In this document: in pieces, positions 19,168-48,069 of the stretch
Layout of the letters: each line of letters opens with the position of its first letter
How positions within the stretch are numbered: position 1 is the first letter of the stretch
The notes under the pieces: model-generated
Told to the model about the DNA's origin: nothing
The model's input: the letters and a program-made list of their open reading frames with translations, nothing else
The model's database searches: none
Assembly: GCF_014873875.1 (NCBI RefSeq)
Contig: NZ_JADBEM010000001.1
Location: 9,052,001 to 9,116,000 of the forward strand
DNA length: 64,000 bases
Origin: Actinopolymorpha pittospori
Lineage (GTDB): Bacteria; Actinomycetota; Actinomycetes; Propionibacteriales; Actinopolymorphaceae
Direction: 5' to 3'
Position numbers and translations under genes: made by a program

Positions 19168-21582
19168 ATGATCTCTTCCCGGGGGCTCGTGACGCGGCAC
19201 AGATCGGGGCAATATCGTTCTGGGGTGCGGGACTCGGGTAGCGAAGCGGCGTCGTCACCGATGCGCGGCTCCGAGGACTCCTACGCCGACGCTCCCGGAC
19301 CAGCTGATTCGTTCGACCGTCCGGGCCCCCGATCCGGTGACTCGTCCCGACGGGGAGACTCGCCCAGGCGTCCCGACTCCTCAGGTTCCTACCCCTCCAG
19401 CGCCTACCCCTCCGGTGCCGCCCAGCGCGCCGGCCGGCGGCCCGCTGGTGCCGGTGGTCGCTCCACGTCGTCGACTTCGACGGGTCGACCCATCCCCTTC
19501 TCCAACGTCGCGTCGGGTCCCGGCGCCGCTGGCACTGGCGCGACTGGCACCGCCGGTGCGAACGACCCCACCGAAGGTCGGACCCCCGAGCGCGTGATCG
19601 GCCGACGGATGGCGACCGGGCCCCGGCCCGAGGAGCGCCCGTCCGACGACCCGCAGCCCGGACTCCACCGCACCGGTGAGCACCGCCTCGGCGACCTCCA
19701 GCCCGAAGAGCGCCGGAACGATGGGCACCGCAACGATGGGCACCGCAACGAAGGGCATCGGCCCAGCGAACCTCCCACCGACGCCTCCGGCCCAGCCGCA
19801 CCCAGCCGAGGCCGGCGGGCTGCGACTCCTTCCGCCGAGCCGCCGGCGTCGCCGGTACGCCCGCTCGGTGGACGTCGGGCGGCCTTTCCGCTCCCGGAAC
19901 CGACAGCGCAGGGACCGACGCAGGAACCGACAGCGCAGATACCGACGCGGCAGGGTCCCGGCTCGGACGCGGGTGCTCCACTCGGGCGCCGCGCGCGCTT
20001 CGTCCCGCCGTCGCCCTCGACCGACCAGGTGCCGGACGAGCCCGACGAGGACGACTTCCCGCCCCGGCTGACCGGACGAGCGCGCGGCACCCGCCGTCCA
20101 CTGGCTGGCGACGTGCCGGTCGAGTCCGGGCCGGCCGCACATCCGGCCGCACCCCCGGCCGGGTGGAGCCCGCCGGCACCCGCCGGACCCGACGACACCC
20201 GTGCACGCGGCCGGCGGCGGCGCGCCGTCGAGCCGTCCACATCGCCGGCGCCGAGCACGCCGTCCGCACCGTCCGCTCCCCTGGACGCCCCAGACGCCGT
20301 GGGCTCCCCGGCCACTGCCGCCGACGCCACCGCCGGGTCGAGCCGGCACGCGCCGGCACCGCCCGGGCACCGGGGCGAACTCTTCGAGACGTCGGGTGAG
20401 TCCCGTACCCGGTCGGCACGCGCCGGCCAGGAGGTCGCGCCCGAGCCCAGCGGACCCGACCCGTTCGCCGACTTCCCGCGGCTGCCGGGCTACGCGGACC
20501 TGCCCGGCCCGGACTGGTCGCCCGCCGGCACACCCGACACCGGCACACCCGACACCGGCACACCCGACACCGGCACACCCGACACCGGCACGCGCGCCGG
20601 CTGGGACGACCTGGCCGACCCGCTGGGCGCGCCCGGCCCCCTGGCGGGCCAGGACACCCCCGACTCGCACCCACCAACCGTCAACTGGCCGGGCCTCGAC
20701 ATCCCCGGCGAGACCACGGCGGCCCATCGCGGAATCGACCCCGAGCCCACCGTCTCCGGCCTCCGTCCCGACCTCGACGTACGGACGTTCCAGGACCCAC
20801 TCGCGGACCCGCCCTCGCCCCGCCAGGAAGCCTTGGTCACCACAGCGGCGGGCGTGACACCCGAGCGGTCGGGCATCGGCGAAGTGGCTCCCGACGAACC
20901 GGTACCCACACCGGGCCGGCCCGCCCGGGCGGGCGACGAGGAGAACGCCGACTACCCCGACGACCTGCGACCGCGCCGCGGCCGCCGCGGCGCCGACGGC
21001 ACGTCCGCCGAACCGCGCGCCGACCGGACCCGGCGGCCTGACCAGGCCGGCAGCCGGCCGGAGCGGGCGGACGCCGACCCGGCCGAGCGCGCACGAACGA
21101 CCAAACGTCGGGACCGGCGCCCACGACAGTCGGGCATGCCCCCTCTGGTCGGGGTGCTCGTGGGGATCGGCGGCAGCGCGGCCGGTGCGGCCCTCGACCT
21201 CGTGGTGACCGGCGGACTCGGCGTGCTGTTCAGCCTGTGCTTCGTCCTGACGGCCTTCGGTGTGGCGGCGGGCATCCGGCGTTCGGACGTCTTCACCGCG
21301 GGGGTGCTGCCACCGCTGTCCGCGCTCGCGACCTTCGTCGGCGTCGGCGCGTTGGCACCGGAACGGCTGGGTGGAACGTCGTCGCCCCTCGGCGCCGTAC
21401 TCGCCGGGCTCGCCGCGGAGTCGTGGACGCTCGTCGCGGCCTGCGCGCTCGCTCTCGGCACCATCGGGCTCCGCGTCGCCCTCGGCGAAGCCCCGCCGGA
21501 GGTCAGTGCTGAGGAGCCGCTCGAAGACCCTTCCGAAGCTCCGGGGGCAGCGCGAAGATCAGGCTTTCCTCGGCGGTCCTGA
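19168..21582 (+). CDS. DUF6542 membrane protein with long disordered N-terminal region
   Basis: About 650 residues of Pro/Gly/Asp/Arg-rich low-complexity sequence precede a C-terminal membrane domain (about 655-775) with about four helices, beginning [21 protein letters not shown]. This domain and the position beside ispH fit the actinobacterial DUF6542 family, of unknown function. The disordered part includes two runs of 15-bp tandem repeats. The start is uncertain: ATG 19168, GTG 19189 and later starts are all in frame, and no good ribosome binding site decides. Its 3' end overlaps ispH tail to tail by 80 nt. Confidence 0.7.
19714..19758 (+). repeat. 3 x 15-bp in-frame tandem repeat
   Basis: Unit CGCAACGATGGGCAC, three copies with one to three differences each, encoding RNDGH-type pentapeptides in the disordered part of the DUF6542 protein. 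Confidence 0.85.
20527..20586 (+). repeat. 4 x 15-bp in-frame tandem repeat
   Basis: Four identical copies of GGCACACCCGACACC encode (GTPDT)4. Perfect identity suggests recent expansion, so the locus may vary in length between strains. Confidence 0.95.
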
Positions 21583-26892: not shown

Positions 26893-26960
26893 ACCTCCGC
26901 GGAAGCGTCCGTGAGACGCGTCACCTTCCTGACCCGTGCCCCGCTCACCCTGTATTTATC

Positions 26961-27050
26961 TTGATCCAATCAACGTTGACAACATATCTGCCCGCGACGG
27001 ACTCTCCTCTCGTCGTACGAATCTCGTCGTACGAATCTCGTCGTACGCAC
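26961..27050 (+). promoter_or_regulatory. Promoter and triple TCGTACGA array upstream of citrate synthase
   Basis: The region is unusually AT-rich for this DNA. A palindrome TTGATCCAATCAA lies at 26961-26973, whose TTGATC could serve as -35 with ATATCT at 26984-26989 as -10 (17-nt spacer). Downstream, a 14-bp unit CTCGTCGTACGAAT is repeated three times (27009-27050, the last copy diverged at its final four bases). Each unit carries the palindromic core TCGTAC(GA). The spacing and position suggest a repressor array between promoter and ribosome binding site. Confidence 0.55.
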
Positions 27051-27063
27051 GAGGGAGGTCGCG

Positions 27064-28242
27064 ATGCCGTCCACTGTCGTCCCGCCACGCCCCCAGCCAG
27101 GTCCGGGCCCGATCGTCGTTCCCGCAGGTCTCGCCGGCGTCGCGGTCACCGAGACCACGATCGGCCACGTACTGGGGGTGGAGGGCTTCTACCACTACCG
27201 CCAGTACTCCGCGGTCGACCTCGCACAGGCGCGTCCGGTCGAGGACGTGTGGCACCTGCTCTTCACCGGTGACCTCCCCGACCGGGCCCGGCACGAGGAG
27301 TTCACCGCGCGGGTCGCCGCACTGCGGCAGATCCCCGACGACGTCCTCGCCGCCCTTCCGGCCATCGCCGCGGCCGCGCCGGCACCACTCGACGGACTCC
27401 GCACCGCGCTCTCCCTCGCCGGCGCCGCCCAGGGCCTGCGTCCCCTGTGGGACCTCGACGAACCGGCCCGGCTGCGCGACGCGCTGCTGGTCTGCGCACA
27501 GGTACCCACGCTGCTCACCGCGTTGTACCGGCTCGGACAGGGCCTCGAGCCGATCCCGCCACGCGACGATCTGTCCTACGCTGCGAACTACCTCTTCATG
27601 CTCACCGGTGCCGAGCCCCGTCCCGAGCACGCGCGCGCGATCGAGCGTTACCTCGTCTCCACCATCGACCACGGCTTCAACGCCTCGACCTTCACCGCCC
27701 GGGTGATCGCGTCGACCGGCGCCGACGTCGCGGCCTGTGTGGTGGGTGGGATCGGCGCGCTCTCCGGCCCGCTGCACGGAGGCGCACCCAGCCGCGCACT
27801 GGACGCCCTGGACGCGATCGGCACTCCGGACCGGATCGACGCCTGGGTGCGGGATCGGATCGAACATGGCGACCGCATCATGGGTTTCGGGCACCCCGTC
27901 TACCGCACCGAGGACCCGCGTTCGCGGATGCTCCGCGCGACGGCGGAGGAACTCGGCGGCGACCTGGTGGCCTTCGCCGTCCAGGTCGAACGCCGGGTGC
28001 TCGACCTGCTCGCGGAACTCAAACCCGGGCGTGAGCTCCACACCAACGTCGAGTTCTACGCCGGGGTGGTGATGGAACTCGTCGGGCTGCCGCGGGCGAT
28101 GTTCACACCGACGTTCGCCTCCAGCCGGGTCATCGGATGGTGCGCGCACGTCCTCGAGCAGGCACGCGACCGGAAAATCATCCGTCCCGACGCGACGTAC
28201 GTCGGTCCTCCGCCGCCGCAGCCGGTTCCCCCGCTCGGGTAG
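27064..28242 (+). CDS. Citrate synthase (actinobacterial citrate synthase 2-like)
   Basis: A 392-residue enzyme that condenses acetyl-CoA and oxaloacetate. The full fold is present without the N-terminal beta domain of E. coli GltA. Active-site histidines are seen as His203 (DHGFNAS) and His277 (GFGHPVYR), with His238 in PLHGG. The catalytic acid position, Asp in the NVDFYSG motif of GltA, is Glu330 here (NVEFYAG). I recall Glu at this place in some actinobacterial citrate synthase 2 proteins, so this may be a subfamily trait. A GGGAGG ribosome binding site precedes the ATG. A second, HTH-fused homologue lies 1.8 kb away on the other strand. Confidence 0.9.
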   Translation: MPSTVVPPRPQPGPGPIVVPAGLAGVAVTETTIGHVLGVEGFYHYRQYSAVDLAQARPVEDVWHLLFTGDLPDRARHEEFTARVAALRQIPDDVLAALPAIAAAAPAPLDGLRTALSLAGAAQGLRPLWDLDEPARLRDALLVCAQVPTLLTALYRLGQGLEPIPPRDDLSYAANYLFMLTGAEPRPEHARAIERYLVSTIDHGFNASTFTARVIASTGADVAACVVGGIGALSGPLHGGAPSRALDALDAIGTPDRIDAWVRDRIEHGDRIMGFGHPVYRTEDPRSRMLRATAEELGGDLVAFAVQVERRVLDLLAELKPGRELHTNVEFYAGVVMELVGLPRAMFTPTFASSRVIGWCAHVLEQARDRKIIRPDATYVGPPPPQPVPPLG

Positions 28243-28421
28243 GCGTCCGGCACGCGATCAGAGGTCCAGGGGCGAAGGTCCCGCACCGCTCGCCCCAACC
28301 GGGCCTGTTCGTGCCCACCCCCGGGCCCAAAGTCCAGCTTGGGTCGCTGGACGGCAGCCGAGTATCGAGGTATCGCCCTCGAACTCCGAGCCTCGCCCCC
28401 GACCCTCGCCTGGATGGACCC

Positions 28422-30188
28422 GTGACCGGATGGACCACCGAACTCGCCGTCGCCGGCGCCCTCGGTTGCCTGGTCGCGCTGCGCGGCCTGCTACTCGGCC
28501 GGCCGGTGCGCCGGTGGTACCCGGCTCTCGTCGGCGTCCTCCTGCTCACCGGTGCGGGTAGCGCGCTGGCCAGGAGTCCGTGGCCCTTCGCGGCCGGGCT
28601 GGTCGCCGTCGGCGCCCTGCTGGTGTGGCCCCCGCGCCCGGAACCGCTCGCCGATCCCGCGGTCCGGGCGCGGGTGCGCCGGCTGGTCGACCGCAGCGAG
28701 ACCGATCCGGTCGCGGCGTTCGCGCAACGCACGGACCTGGCGTACGCGTTCAGCCCCGACCGGCGAGCGGCGCTCGCGTACCAGGTGCGTTTCGGCACCG
28801 CGATCGCGACCGGTGACCCCATCGGCGCCGCCGGCTCGATGACCGCCGCGGTGACGGCGTTCCGCCACGAAGCCGCGCGTAACGGCTGGCGGACGGCGGT
28901 GCTGGGTGCCTCCGCACGCCGGCTGGACCTGTGGGTCGGCGCCGAACTGCGGGCGGTCCCGATCGGGCGCGACGTCGTCGTCGACCCGTCGACGTTCTCC
29001 CTGCACGGGCGCCGGTTCCGCAACCTCCGGCAGGCCGTACGGCGCACGTACAACGCGGGGGTCACCACGCGGATCGTCTCCGAACGCGCGGTCGAACCGT
29101 CCCTGCGCGGTGAGCTCACCGAACTGCTCCGCCGCTGCGATCGCCGTCCCGCGTCCGGCTTCTCGAGGAACCTCGACCATCCCCTCGACGGGCTGCACGC
29201 CGGTGTCGTCCTCGCGGTGGCGCGGGACCGGTCCGGCCGGGTCGCGGGTCTCGCCCGGTGGGCCAGCTCCGACCACGGCCGCGAGCTCTCCCTGGACACG
29301 ACGTGGCGCCTTCCGGACGCGCCGAACGGTGTCAACGAACGCCTGACACTCGACATGCTCGCCTGGGCGCGCACCCACGGCGCGGACCGCCTCTGCCTGT
29401 CGTTCGCGGCGTTCCCGGAGGTCCTCGACCGGCCCCGCCCCCGGACGCCGGGCGCACTCGGTCTCGCGGCGGGACTGCGCTGCCTGCGGGTCCTGGTTCG
29501 GGTGGAGTCGGTCAACCGTTACCTGCGCAAGTTCCACGCCCTCGGCGAACGACGCTACGTGCTGGCCCGCTACCGCGACCTCGCCCGGGTGGCGGCGGCG
29601 ACGCTGGTGCTGGAGTTCTTCCCGAGGCGTACGTCGTTCCGGCGACCGGTGAGGCTACCGCGGCAGGCGCAGGCACCACGCCCGCTGGTGCGAGTCCCGC
29701 GACAGGCGGAGGAGCCGCGAGCTGTCGTGGGGGTCCCGCGGCAGGTAGGGCGGCACGCGGCCGGACCGCTCGTCCCGCGGCAGGTGGGGCGGCCCGCCGC
29801 CGGTCCGCTCGGCGAGTCGGCCGCACGGCACGGATCGCCGGAAGGAGCACGGATCCCGGTCCAGCGCTCCACGCCCCCGAACCTGGCGGGCGGCCCGAGG
29901 CACAAGGCCGGTGGGGAGCACACCACCGGCGGAACCGAGCAGCCCGTCCGTCGGGTCGGCCGCCACACCGGTGGCGACGCCGGTGCCGGGAGCGGTCCGA
30001 GCCAGAGCCGGCCGCCCTGCGGCGGCCTCCCGAGTACGCCTAGGCGCCGGGGGCTGATCCCGTATAGAGCGCACGCGGGCGGAACCGGAGCCGGTGGGCG
30101 TACTCCTCCAGCGCATGAGCGACCACCCCTGCCATCCGCCCCAGCAGGAAGATCACCTCTCCAGAACCGTCCGCCAAGCCGGCCTTGA
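28422..30188 (+). CDS. DUF2156 (MprF/LysX-type catalytic domain) membrane protein
   Basis: A 588-residue protein from the GTG at 28422. Three hydrophobic helices (about 5-28, 33-52, 56-72) precede a GNAT-like DUF2156 domain, as in the catalytic half of phosphatidylglycerol lysyltransferases: DLAYAFSPDRRAALAYQVRFGTAIATGDPIG and FSLHGRRFRNLRQAVRRTYNAGV. FHALGERRYVLARYRDL closes the domain near residue 390. The last ~190 residues are Pro/Arg/Gly-rich, possibly disordered. The final 149 nt overlap the convergent citrate synthase gene, so the C-terminus may be a non-functional run-on. The aminoacyl donor, if any, is unknown. Confidence 0.75.
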   Translation: MTGWTTELAVAGALGCLVALRGLLLGRPVRRWYPALVGVLLLTGAGSALARSPWPFAAGLVAVGALLVWPPRPEPLADPAVRARVRRLVDRSETDPVAAFAQRTDLAYAFSPDRRAALAYQVRFGTAIATGDPIGAAGSMTAAVTAFRHEAARNGWRTAVLGASARRLDLWVGAELRAVPIGRDVVVDPSTFSLHGRRFRNLRQAVRRTYNAGVTTRIVSERAVEPSLRGELTELLRRCDRRPASGFSRNLDHPLDGLHAGVVLAVARDRSGRVAGLARWASSDHGRELSLDTTWRLPDAPNGVNERLTLDMLAWARTHGADRLCLSFAAFPEVLDRPRPRTPGALGLAAGLRCLRVLVRVESVNRYLRKFHALGERRYVLARYRDLARVAAATLVLEFFPRRTSFRRPVRLPRQAQAPRPLVRVPRQAEEPRAVVGVPRQVGRHAAGPLVPRQVGRPAAGPLGESAARHGSPEGARIPVQRSTPPNLAGGPRHKAGGEHTTGGTEQPVRRVGRHTGGDAGAGSGPSQSRPPCGGLPSTPRRRGLIPYRAHAGGTGAGGRTPPAHERPPLPSAPAGRSPLQNRPPSRP

Positions 30189-31329
30189 CGGCGAGCGCAC
30201 CGAGTGCGAGGTCGACGTTGGGTCGTGGCCCGCCGTGCCGGCCCACGACCCGGATCAGCTCCCCGACCGTCTCGTCAACCTGACCTTGCGTACCGGACCG
30301 GGCGACCAGGTCGAGCAGTGCCTCCGCGCGCGGGTCCGGTCCGGTGTAGACGGCATGGCCGAATCCAGGCAGCCGCTCCCCCTGACGGAGCCGGTCTCCT
30401 ACCAGCCGGGGCACGTCGCCCGACTCCGCCGCCTCGCGCAGGAATCCCTCGACCGCCGAAGCGCTCGCCCCGTGCAGCACCCCGCCGCCCGCGCTCAACG
30501 CGGTCAGCACCACGAGGTAGGGGTCGGCCCACACCGAAGCGGCGATCCGGGCGGCGAAGGTGGAGGCGGCCAACTCGTGGTCGGCGAGCAGGATCAGGGC
30601 CGCGTCCAGGGCCCGGATCTCACCCGTGCCCGGCGGTCGGTCGGCGAGGCGTGACCACAACCGCTCGGCGATCGAGCTTCCCGGCACCGGCGTCCGGACG
30701 GGCAGGCAGTCGACGACCCCGGCCACCAGGGCTCTCGCCGTCGCGGTGACCGCCGCCGGCCGCCGGTCGTCCCGCATCGGGTCCGCCGCGGCGAGCGTGG
30801 CCACCGCCACCCGAACCCGGTCGATCGGCCGGGTGGAGGCGGGCAACGCCTCCTGGGCCCGCCGCCCTACCAACACGGCGGCGTCGCCGGCCCGCCACGC
30901 GCCGCCGCGATCCGATCCAGCCGACCCAGAACCAGCCGACCCGGAACCGGCCGACCCGGAACCGGCCGCTCCAGAACCGGCCGCTCCAGAACCGGCCGAC
31001 CCTGACCAGAGCAGCTCGGCGACGTCCTCGAAGCTCGCCGTCCGGGCGAGTTCGATCGCGTCCCGGCCGCGGTAGTAGAGCGCGCCCTCGGGGTCCAGCA
31101 GGGTCAGCTCGGTGTCGATCACGACCTCCAGTGCACCCGCCCGGCCGCCGCGGCGGTTGCGCTTGGCGAGGCGTTCGACCTCGATCCGGTCGAATCGGGA
31201 CGAACGCCGGTCAGCGCCCCGGTGCCGGGACAGCACTCCCCTGCTCACGTAGGCGTACACCGTCTCAGGTTTCACCCCGAGCAGTTCGGCGGCCTGGGCG
31301 GTGGTCATCCACCGGGTGGAGTCGCTCAC
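30040..31329 (-). CDS. Citrate synthase with N-terminal MerR/excisionase-type HTH domain
   Basis: A 429-residue protein. Residues about 7-60 form a helix-turn-helix of excisionase/MerR type (MTTAQAAELLGVKPETVYAYVSRGVLSRHR). The rest is citrate synthase-like with His in DHELAAST, His in GFGHAVYTG and Asp in PRPNVDLALG, so all three catalytic positions survive. Between the HTH and the large domain lies a Gly-Ser-Ala linker built from 15-bp repeats. Actinobacteria often encode such an HTH-fused paralogue near a plain citrate synthase. It may be enzyme, regulator or both. The GTG start is 51 nt from the divergent fumarase gene. Confidence 0.85.
   Translation of the reverse strand: MSDSTRWMTTAQAAELLGVKPETVYAYVSRGVLSRHRGADRRSSRFDRIEVERLAKRNRRGGRAGALEVVIDTELTLLDPEGALYYRGRDAIELARTASFEDVAELLWSGSAGSGAAGSGAAGSGSAGSGSAGSGSAGSDRGGAWRAGDAAVLVGRRAQEALPASTRPIDRVRVAVATLAAADPMRDDRRPAAVTATARALVAGVVDCLPVRTPVPGSSIAERLWSRLADRPPGTGEIRALDAALILLADHELAASTFAARIAASVWADPYLVVLTALSAGGGVLHGASASAVEGFLREAAESGDVPRLVGDRLRQGERLPGFGHAVYTGPDPRAEALLDLVARSGTQGQVDETVGELIRVVGRHGGPRPNVDLALGALAVKAGLADGSGEVIFLLGRMAGVVAHALEEYAHRLRFRPRALYTGSAPGA
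30923..30997 (-). repeat. 5 x 15-bp in-frame tandem repeat in the HTH-citrate synthase gene
   Basis: Five units of GACCCGGAACCGGCC type (plus-strand reading), with first-copy and last-two-copy variants. On the coding strand they give GS(A)GS/GAAGS-type linker residues. The run sits inside the citrate synthase part, after LLWSGSAG. Confidence 0.9.
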
Positions 31330-33611: not shown

Positions 33612-34670
33612 GTGCCGGATCCAGCCGCGTCGGCTGATCCTTTCGCGTCGGCTGATCCTTTCGCGTCGGCTGATCCTTTCGCGTCGGTTGGTGCAGCCGC
33701 GCTCCTCGCGCACTGGGGGCTACCCGCGCCGGACGCCGTGCACCACCCGGGCGAGGGCACCAACAACTCACTCGTCGTCGTCGAGGTCGCCGGCGCCAGC
33801 TACGTCCTGCGCGGCTACCAGAACGCCGCCATCGCCCGCGTCGCCGCGGAGCACCGGTTCCTGGCCGCCCTCGCGGCGGCCGGGCTGCCCTTCGCGGTTC
33901 CCAGCCCGATCCCCACACCGGACGGGCGAACCTGCGTGCCGACGCCGAACGGCCCGGCCGCGCTCTTCCACTATCTGCCCGGACGGCCACCGAGGCGCGA
34001 CGCGGGGACACTCGTCGTCGCCGGTCGGATGCTCGGCGACCTCGACCGGGCCCTCGCGGCACTCCCGAACGCCGTCTCGCCCTACGACTGGCGCCATCCG
34101 CTGTCGGAGGTCCATCCGGCTGTCCCCGACCTGGCCGAACTCGCCGCCGCACTCGCGACCGCGCTGCCCACCACGGCCGGCGAAGACCCGGGCTGGCTCC
34201 CCGCCGCGGCCGAGCGGGCGGACGTGGCGTACTTCCGGTTGTGGGAAACCCTGCCGGTGCAGATCGTCCACGGCGACTTCGCACTGTCCAACACACTCGT
34301 CCACGACGACGGCAGCCCCAGCGCGGTGCTCGACTTCGAGGTCGCCGGGCTCGGCCTGCGGGTCACCGACCTCGTGGTGGCGGTGTCCCTGTGCACCGAC
34401 GGCTGGTGGACGCCGGGCGCCGCCGCCGCCGCCGACCTGCTCTGCCGGGCCTACGCCGAGCGGGTGACGCTCACCAGCGCCGAGTGGGCGGCCTTTCCCG
34501 ACCTGCTCCGAATCCGCGCGCTGGAGTCACTGGTCTGGCGCTGCGGTCGCTGGCGGCTGGGGCAAGCCTCCCTTGACGAGGTACGCGACCGCTTCGACAC
34601 GGCGCGCCGGATCGAACGCTGGCTCGACACGCACGGCCCTACGCTCGTCGACGACCTGCTCCACCGCTGA
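33612..34670 (+). CDS. Aminoglycoside phosphotransferase-like kinase
   Basis: A 352-residue protein-kinase-like phosphotransferase. An N-lobe with EGTNNSLVVVEVAGASYVLRGYQN is followed by the catalytic Brenner motif IVHGDFALSNTLV (about residues 218-230) and the metal-binding LDFEVAGLG. Such enzymes phosphorylate hydroxyls of sugars, amino alcohols or homoserine; the substrate is unknown. The first ~20 residues contain three copies of ASADPF from an 18-bp repeat. GGAGG lies 5 nt before the GTG start. It lies 14 nt after the DUF402 gene, so the two may be co-transcribed. Confidence 0.8.
   Translation: MPDPAASADPFASADPFASADPFASVGAAALLAHWGLPAPDAVHHPGEGTNNSLVVVEVAGASYVLRGYQNAAIARVAAEHRFLAALAAAGLPFAVPSPIPTPDGRTCVPTPNGPAALFHYLPGRPPRRDAGTLVVAGRMLGDLDRALAALPNAVSPYDWRHPLSEVHPAVPDLAELAAALATALPTTAGEDPGWLPAAAERADVAYFRLWETLPVQIVHGDFALSNTLVHDDGSPSAVLDFEVAGLGLRVTDLVVAVSLCTDGWWTPGAAAAADLLCRAYAERVTLTSAEWAAFPDLLRIRALESLVWRCGRWRLGQASLDEVRDRFDTARRIERWLDTHGPTLVDDLLHR
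33627..33680 (+). repeat. 3 x 18-bp in-frame tandem repeat at the kinase N-terminus
   Basis: Three identical copies of GCGTCGGCTGATCCTTTC encode (ASADPF)3, followed by a partial fourth copy. The unit includes lower-GC codons such as TTT that are rare in this genome. Confidence 0.95.
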
Positions 34671-47918: not shown

Positions 47919-48006
47919 GTAAGGATGATTACACCGTTACGGCGGTACGACAAGAGCCGACGACCCGCCGGCACCGATGGGTGGGCCCGCCGGTGCCGGG
48001 GGCGAG

Positions 48007-48069
48007 CTGTCAGAGCCGGTGGGACAGCTGTCAGAGCCGGTGGGACAGCCGTCAGAGCCGGTGGGACAG
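48007..48069 (-). repeat. 3 x 21-bp tandem repeat across a stop codon
   Basis: Three copies of a 21-bp unit beginning CTGTCAGAGCCGGTGGGACA. The rightmost copy contains the stop codon and last codons of the DUF5808 gene; the other two lie beyond it. Loss or change of the stop could add copies to the protein C-terminus (LSHRL). Confidence 0.93.

Follow-up and report, generated by a model that had tools for sequence, protein, structure and literature searches.

The citrate synthase locus

The window analysed here, a stretch of 64,000 nucleotides from the genome of Actinopolymorpha pittospori, carries a gene for citrate synthase (CS) and, further along, a gene for a protein termed HTH-citrate synthase (HTH-CS). 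In front of CS lie a dyad with an adjoining TTGACA box, an array of short tandem repeats and a ribosome binding site (Table 1). CS scores well above the PF00285 cut-off (373.5 bits versus 27). A lysyl-phosphatidylglycerol synthase-like gene (28137-30188) lies between CS and HTH-CS in the window.

Table 1. Features at the citrate synthase locus, in window positions.
Feature	Position	Strand	Evidence and remarks
Conserved dyad, likely operator	26961-26973	+	TTGATCCAATCAA; sequence conservation, putative role
TTGACA, likely -35 box	26976-26981	+	Third conserved half-site, kept with the dyad; presumed promoter role
Leader RNA stretch, predicted stem pairing the ribosome binding site	26998-27066	+	Folding; z -1.71 to -3.0 depending on boundaries
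Repeat unit 1	27009-27022	+	CTCGTCGTACGAAT; sequence and TRF; private to the A. pittospori genome
Repeat unit 2	27023-27036	+	CTCGTCGTACGAAT, same letters as unit 1; sequence and TRF
Repeat unit 3	27037-27050	+	CTCGTCGTACGCAC; 12/14 identity to units 1-2; palindrome lost
Ribosome binding site GGGAGG	27053-27058	+	5 nt 5' of the CS ATG at 27064
Citrate synthase (CS), 392 aa	27064-28242	+	PF00285, E 1.3e-111; NF009005, 343.7 bits (cut-off 332)
HTH-citrate synthase (HTH-CS), 429 aa, likely regulator	30040-31329	-	PF12728, E 3.3e-10; PF00285, E 6.9e-60

By its matches to PF12728 and PF00285, together with an AF2 model, HTH-CS combines a DNA-binding domain with the fold of an enzyme. The model (mean pLDDT 82.0, pTM 0.75, 16 sequences) places a winged HTH at residues 7-59 and as a whole matches citrate and methylcitrate synthases in structure comparison. 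D373 is invariant in the 16 rows of the HTH-CS alignment, as are H286 and H325, the His residues of the HG and GFGH-type motifs. Since we take these three residues to be the catalytic positions of citrate synthase, HTH-CS may have retained enzyme activity. The window CS and the citrate synthase of B. subtilis (2c6x) share the Glu of an NVEF motif, a position at which the HTH-CS proteins have Asp. The coding sequence of HTH-CS also contains 5.5 copies of a 15-bp unit (30920-31002), which encodes a linker-like run of Gly, Ser and Ala.

The tandem array in the CS leader

A preliminary description of this DNA had counted three 14-bp units in front of CS and proposed that they form an operator array for a cooperative repressor. 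The array is real and its first two units are exact copies, but the third is degenerate: the palindromic core TCGTACGA is present in units 1 and 2 only, and unit 3 reads TCGTACGC in its place. TRF reports positions 27008-27047 as a repeat of period 14 with 2.9 copies and 100% match. Core-to-core spacing is 14 bp, or 1.33 turns, in agreement with the one and a third helical turns first described. By our own arithmetic, the per-position probability of a run of 26 straight matches at a lag of 14 is about 1e-14 at this base composition, and the tandem is no chance product. As a lone 8-mer, on the other hand, TCGTACGA is unremarkable and occurs at near its expected frequency. The 8-mer occurs 3 times in the window versus 0.76 expected, a count attained by 5 of 100 shuffles, and the genome total of 154 compares with roughly 125 expected from the window shuffle rate scaled up, on which ground TCGTACGA was rejected as a regulon signal. 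Fifteen of the 154 sites (L002-L016) were inspected and most overlap long open frames, by a coding test that is unreliable in that it called the array itself coding.

The array lies 3' of the TTGACA box and 5' of the GGGAGG site. Its supposed location between a promoter and the ribosome binding site is borne out to that extent, although a scan of 26893-27070 with the sigma-70 consensus found no promoter. A search of the whole 10,562,590-base (10.56-Mb) genome located the tandem pair TCGTACGA-N6-TCGTACGA only once. When up to one mismatch was allowed, the 14-mer had seven sites, two of them in the array and the other five all isolated.

The regions upstream of 104 CS orthologues were compared, 24 from relatives (the window's own genome excluded) and 80 that are the best of at least 573 confirmed in a scan of named genomes; nearly all of these 80 loci are from Streptomyces and are therefore not independent. 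The arrangement CGTACG-N8-CGTACG was found upstream of none of the orthologues (0/7 in the same family, 0/17 in the rest of the order and 0/80 in the named genomes). Given this absence, and with no second copy in its own genome, the array was rejected as a conserved operator. Among the genomes examined it is private to the window's genome.

Relatives G001-G006 carry one short unrepeated stretch at the position of the array, for example CTCCTCTCATCCGCATTCACGGGAGG; the leader of G007 is shorter than theirs. With two of its units removed, the leader of the window can be aligned nearly gap-free with those of G001-G006, so that two extra units were probably gained on the lineage of the window. As these relatives have a single unrepeated stretch, the array is most plausibly a tandem duplication of part of the CS 5' leader, private to this lineage and most likely recent. 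Replication slippage makes short tandem repeats, which resemble the array in having head-to-tail, near-identical units that are missing from close relatives, and similar arrays are found elsewhere in the window's genome and in a related genome. Counted under one filter, the window has 4 near-perfect short tandems, a 400-kb sample of its genome 7 and a 400-kb sample of a congener 14; the period is not divisible by 3 in 1 of the 7 and in 2 of the 14. Besides the 15-bp repeat in HTH-CS, other near-perfect arrays of the window are at 20525-20591, 33626-33687 and 48005-48069. The CS array itself is ordinary and of little wider interest.

Two functional readings of the array were weighed against simple duplication. 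The cores could be a species-specific, recently gained operator, bound by a TetR-like repressor or by HTH-CS; they are palindromic and evenly spaced, with the promoter region on one side and the ribosome site on the other, and their non-conservation is compatible with a new site. We regard such an operator as very unlikely, as one of the three cores is broken, neighbouring cores fall on different faces of the helix at 14-bp spacing, the genome has no further array, TCGTACGA is about as frequent as expected, relatives have no such site and a conserved candidate site for HTH-CS is already present (see below). The other reading is at the level of RNA. If TTGACA is the -35 box, transcription would start near 27010 and the array would be leader RNA, in which extra units might lengthen a hairpin masking the ribosome binding site, with lowered or switched CS translation as the result. 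A 69-nt leader is predicted to fold at -31.3 kcal/mol (z -3.0, 2/200 shuffles), but z varies with the boundaries chosen (-3.0, -2.71 or -1.71) and is only -1.71 (12/200 shuffles) for a 74-nt version. A 64-nt leader folds at -25.9 with three units versus -12.5 with one, but by a pairing that differs from the 69-nt fold. Predicted folds of G000 and of G001-G006 have the ribosome site in paired form; however, the leader folds of the relatives are mostly near those of shuffles, with G006 alone clearly better. Moreover, stems arise from the repetition of any palindrome, and no compensatory changes were shown. An RNA element seems to us unlikely. If the array has any effect, it would most likely act on translation through the folding of RNA close to the ribosome binding site, where its self-complementary cores would extend the stem that pairs this site, and tuning of translation by the leader stem is possible.

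The dyad upstream of CS

The dyad and TTGACA of the window read TTGATCCAATCAACGTTGACA (26961-26981). The corresponding degenerate pattern, TTGAYNNNRTCAAYRTTGAC, is matched exactly in 98 of the 104 CS upstream regions and had 0 matches on either strand in the remaining 526 kb of the CS loci. Some of the six upstream regions that lack the exact pattern (L078, L081, L086, L103, L108 and L115) have spacing variants or a single mismatch. A stricter pattern, with A for R, is present once each in 24 of the 57 relatives' genomes. A CS orthologue of at least 62% identity is present in 25 genomes, which include all 24, and the twenty-fifth, G052, has GTCAA in place of ATCAA. The stricter pattern was also found in 8 of 396 genomes of the phylum, a sample in which the class is thinly represented. 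With R, the pattern occurs in 20 of 296 genomes of the class. As a control, the reversed pattern had 0 matches in every relative and class genome and one match each in six genomes of the phylum sample.

A search with the dyad TTGATNNNATCAA alone gave one additional site in the window's genome, which falls within a frame that encodes a transporter-like protein. Other families show a dyad with a 4-bp spacer or a different third half-site. The dyad and TTGACA are likely a conserved operator of CS, and together they cover what is presumably the -35 box. This operator occurs once per genome, except in G607, where a second copy precedes a second CS gene. The latter encodes an HTH-less paralogue, has no HTH-CS neighbour and possesses its own exact operator (L230:1501-1520).

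HTH-CS and the putative control of CS

All 20 class genomes with the pattern also carry a homologue of HTH-CS (E 1e-100 or better), and in these the dyad usually sits between divergent HTH-CS and CS genes. By our reading of the coordinates, 18 of the 20 have 16-88 bp between the site and the end of the HTH-CS match, and G608 has 471 bp between the site and a partial match. In every one of the 104 loci HTH-CS and CS are linked, divergently in 97 (L105 and 96 others) and convergently, with HTH-CS downstream, in 7 (L024, placed by coordinates, and 6 others). G087, a genome outside the class, likewise has CS and HTH-CS divergent around an operator site. At E 1e-40, HTH-CS was detected in 22 of the 57 relatives, G012, G030 and G048 falling below this threshold with the gene nevertheless present in their loci. 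The window's family has HTH-CS downstream of CS and convergent with it. The two genes are separated by under about 0.35 kb in G001-G006, whereas the gap is 1.3 kb in G007 and reaches 1.8 kb in the window. The dyad of the window is not adjacent to HTH-CS. That HTH-CS has moved downstream while the operator stays at CS points to CS as the target. By these sequence comparisons the dyad is conserved and linked to HTH-CS, and the module appears to be kept across several actinobacterial families, with at least one genome that is not of the class, G087, sharing it.

We think it probable that the array is a private leader duplication and that CS is controlled at the 26961-26981 dyad, likely by a dimer of HTH-CS. 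This reading draws on the absence of the array from 104/104 upstream regions, the presence of the operator in 98/104 and of HTH-CS in 20/20 pattern-bearing class genomes, the linkage of HTH-CS to CS in 104/104 loci, and the retention of CS, operator and HTH-CS together in G087. Transcription of CS would be controlled at the dyad and TTGACA, the winged HTH of the dimer would bind the TTGAY/RTCAA half-sites, and the citrate-synthase domain of HTH-CS would sense substrate or product. Binding by HTH-CS, repression of CS, the ligand and the -35 role of TTGACA are steps that we infer. The preliminary description had named HTH-CS as a candidate regulator acting through the repeats; its candidacy gains comparative support, but by way of the dyad and TTGAC box and not of the repeats.

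Several observations weigh against control of the dyad by HTH-CS. A dyad is seen in 28 of 31 loci compared; the class loci L195 and L202 carry HTH-CS without one, and none is present upstream of the window's own HTH-CS (L209). Linkage of HTH-CS to CS could also reflect a shared pathway rather than regulation. Other regulators, moreover, have been reported at these genes. In the literature consulted (PMC12323332, PMC9739823, PMC7324645, PMC8981147, PMC7411085), the Streptomyces pair, named sco5831-sco5832 and slnwt_1427-1428, is a citrate-synthase-like gene and a CS that share an intergenic region. MtrA binds this region in sco5831-sco5832, and both genes are more highly expressed at late times in an mtrA mutant; in S. 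albus, RspA1 binds the slnwt_1427-1428 promoters; and for Saccharopolyspora, GlnR and DasR have been reported at CS genes. The protein at the dyad might be not HTH-CS but an unlinked regulator, for instance MtrA, GlnR or RspA1. A global regulator should have many sites, however, whereas the operator is found once per genome save for the one with a second CS. In addition, the published MtrA consensus, GTAACCNNNNNGTAACC, is unlike the dyad, and the reported MtrA site, TTGACTTAACTGTCCA, falls on the -10 side of Streptomyces promoters, away from the dyad. We consider control by an unlinked regulator improbable.

The Streptomyces loci in our analysis have the same divergent pair as sco5831-sco5832 and slnwt_1427-1428, with the HTH and the operator, in contrast to the convergent, downstream HTH-CS of the window's family. 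From names and site positions we infer that sco5831 is the HTH member of its pair, S. coelicolor being absent from the loci analysed. Regulation of one member of the pair by the other is not treated in those portions of the literature on either pair that were available. A description of HTH-CS as a regulator was not found in the open-licence literature, from which most subscription papers are missing.

PutA, BirA and NadR are enzymes that double as transcription regulators. HTH-CS resembles them in joining an enzyme domain to a DNA-binding domain, and it has a conserved candidate operator at a gene for the same reaction; it differs in that its enzyme fold is that of citrate synthase and its DNA binding is predicted. 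The chances appear to us evenly balanced that in HTH-CS a citrate synthase has become a transcription factor, which as a dimer senses a metabolite and acts on its partner CS via one TTGAY-N3/4-RTCAA operator per genome, and which the literature has so far handled as a plain enzyme. The conserved module suggests that, in many actinobacteria, antibiotic producers included, a citrate-synthase-shaped regulator with a single target promoter tunes entry into the citric acid cycle. If true, a metabolic enzyme fold would serve as the sensor for its own reaction.

In three class genomes (loci L244, L245 and L246), HTH-CS lies near a frame that begins with (M)PQIHFLDVTNRDGVQTARTGLS-like residues, by resemblance possibly an HMGL or homocitrate-synthase-like enzyme, and a related, wider dyad is present between HTH-CS and this neighbouring frame.
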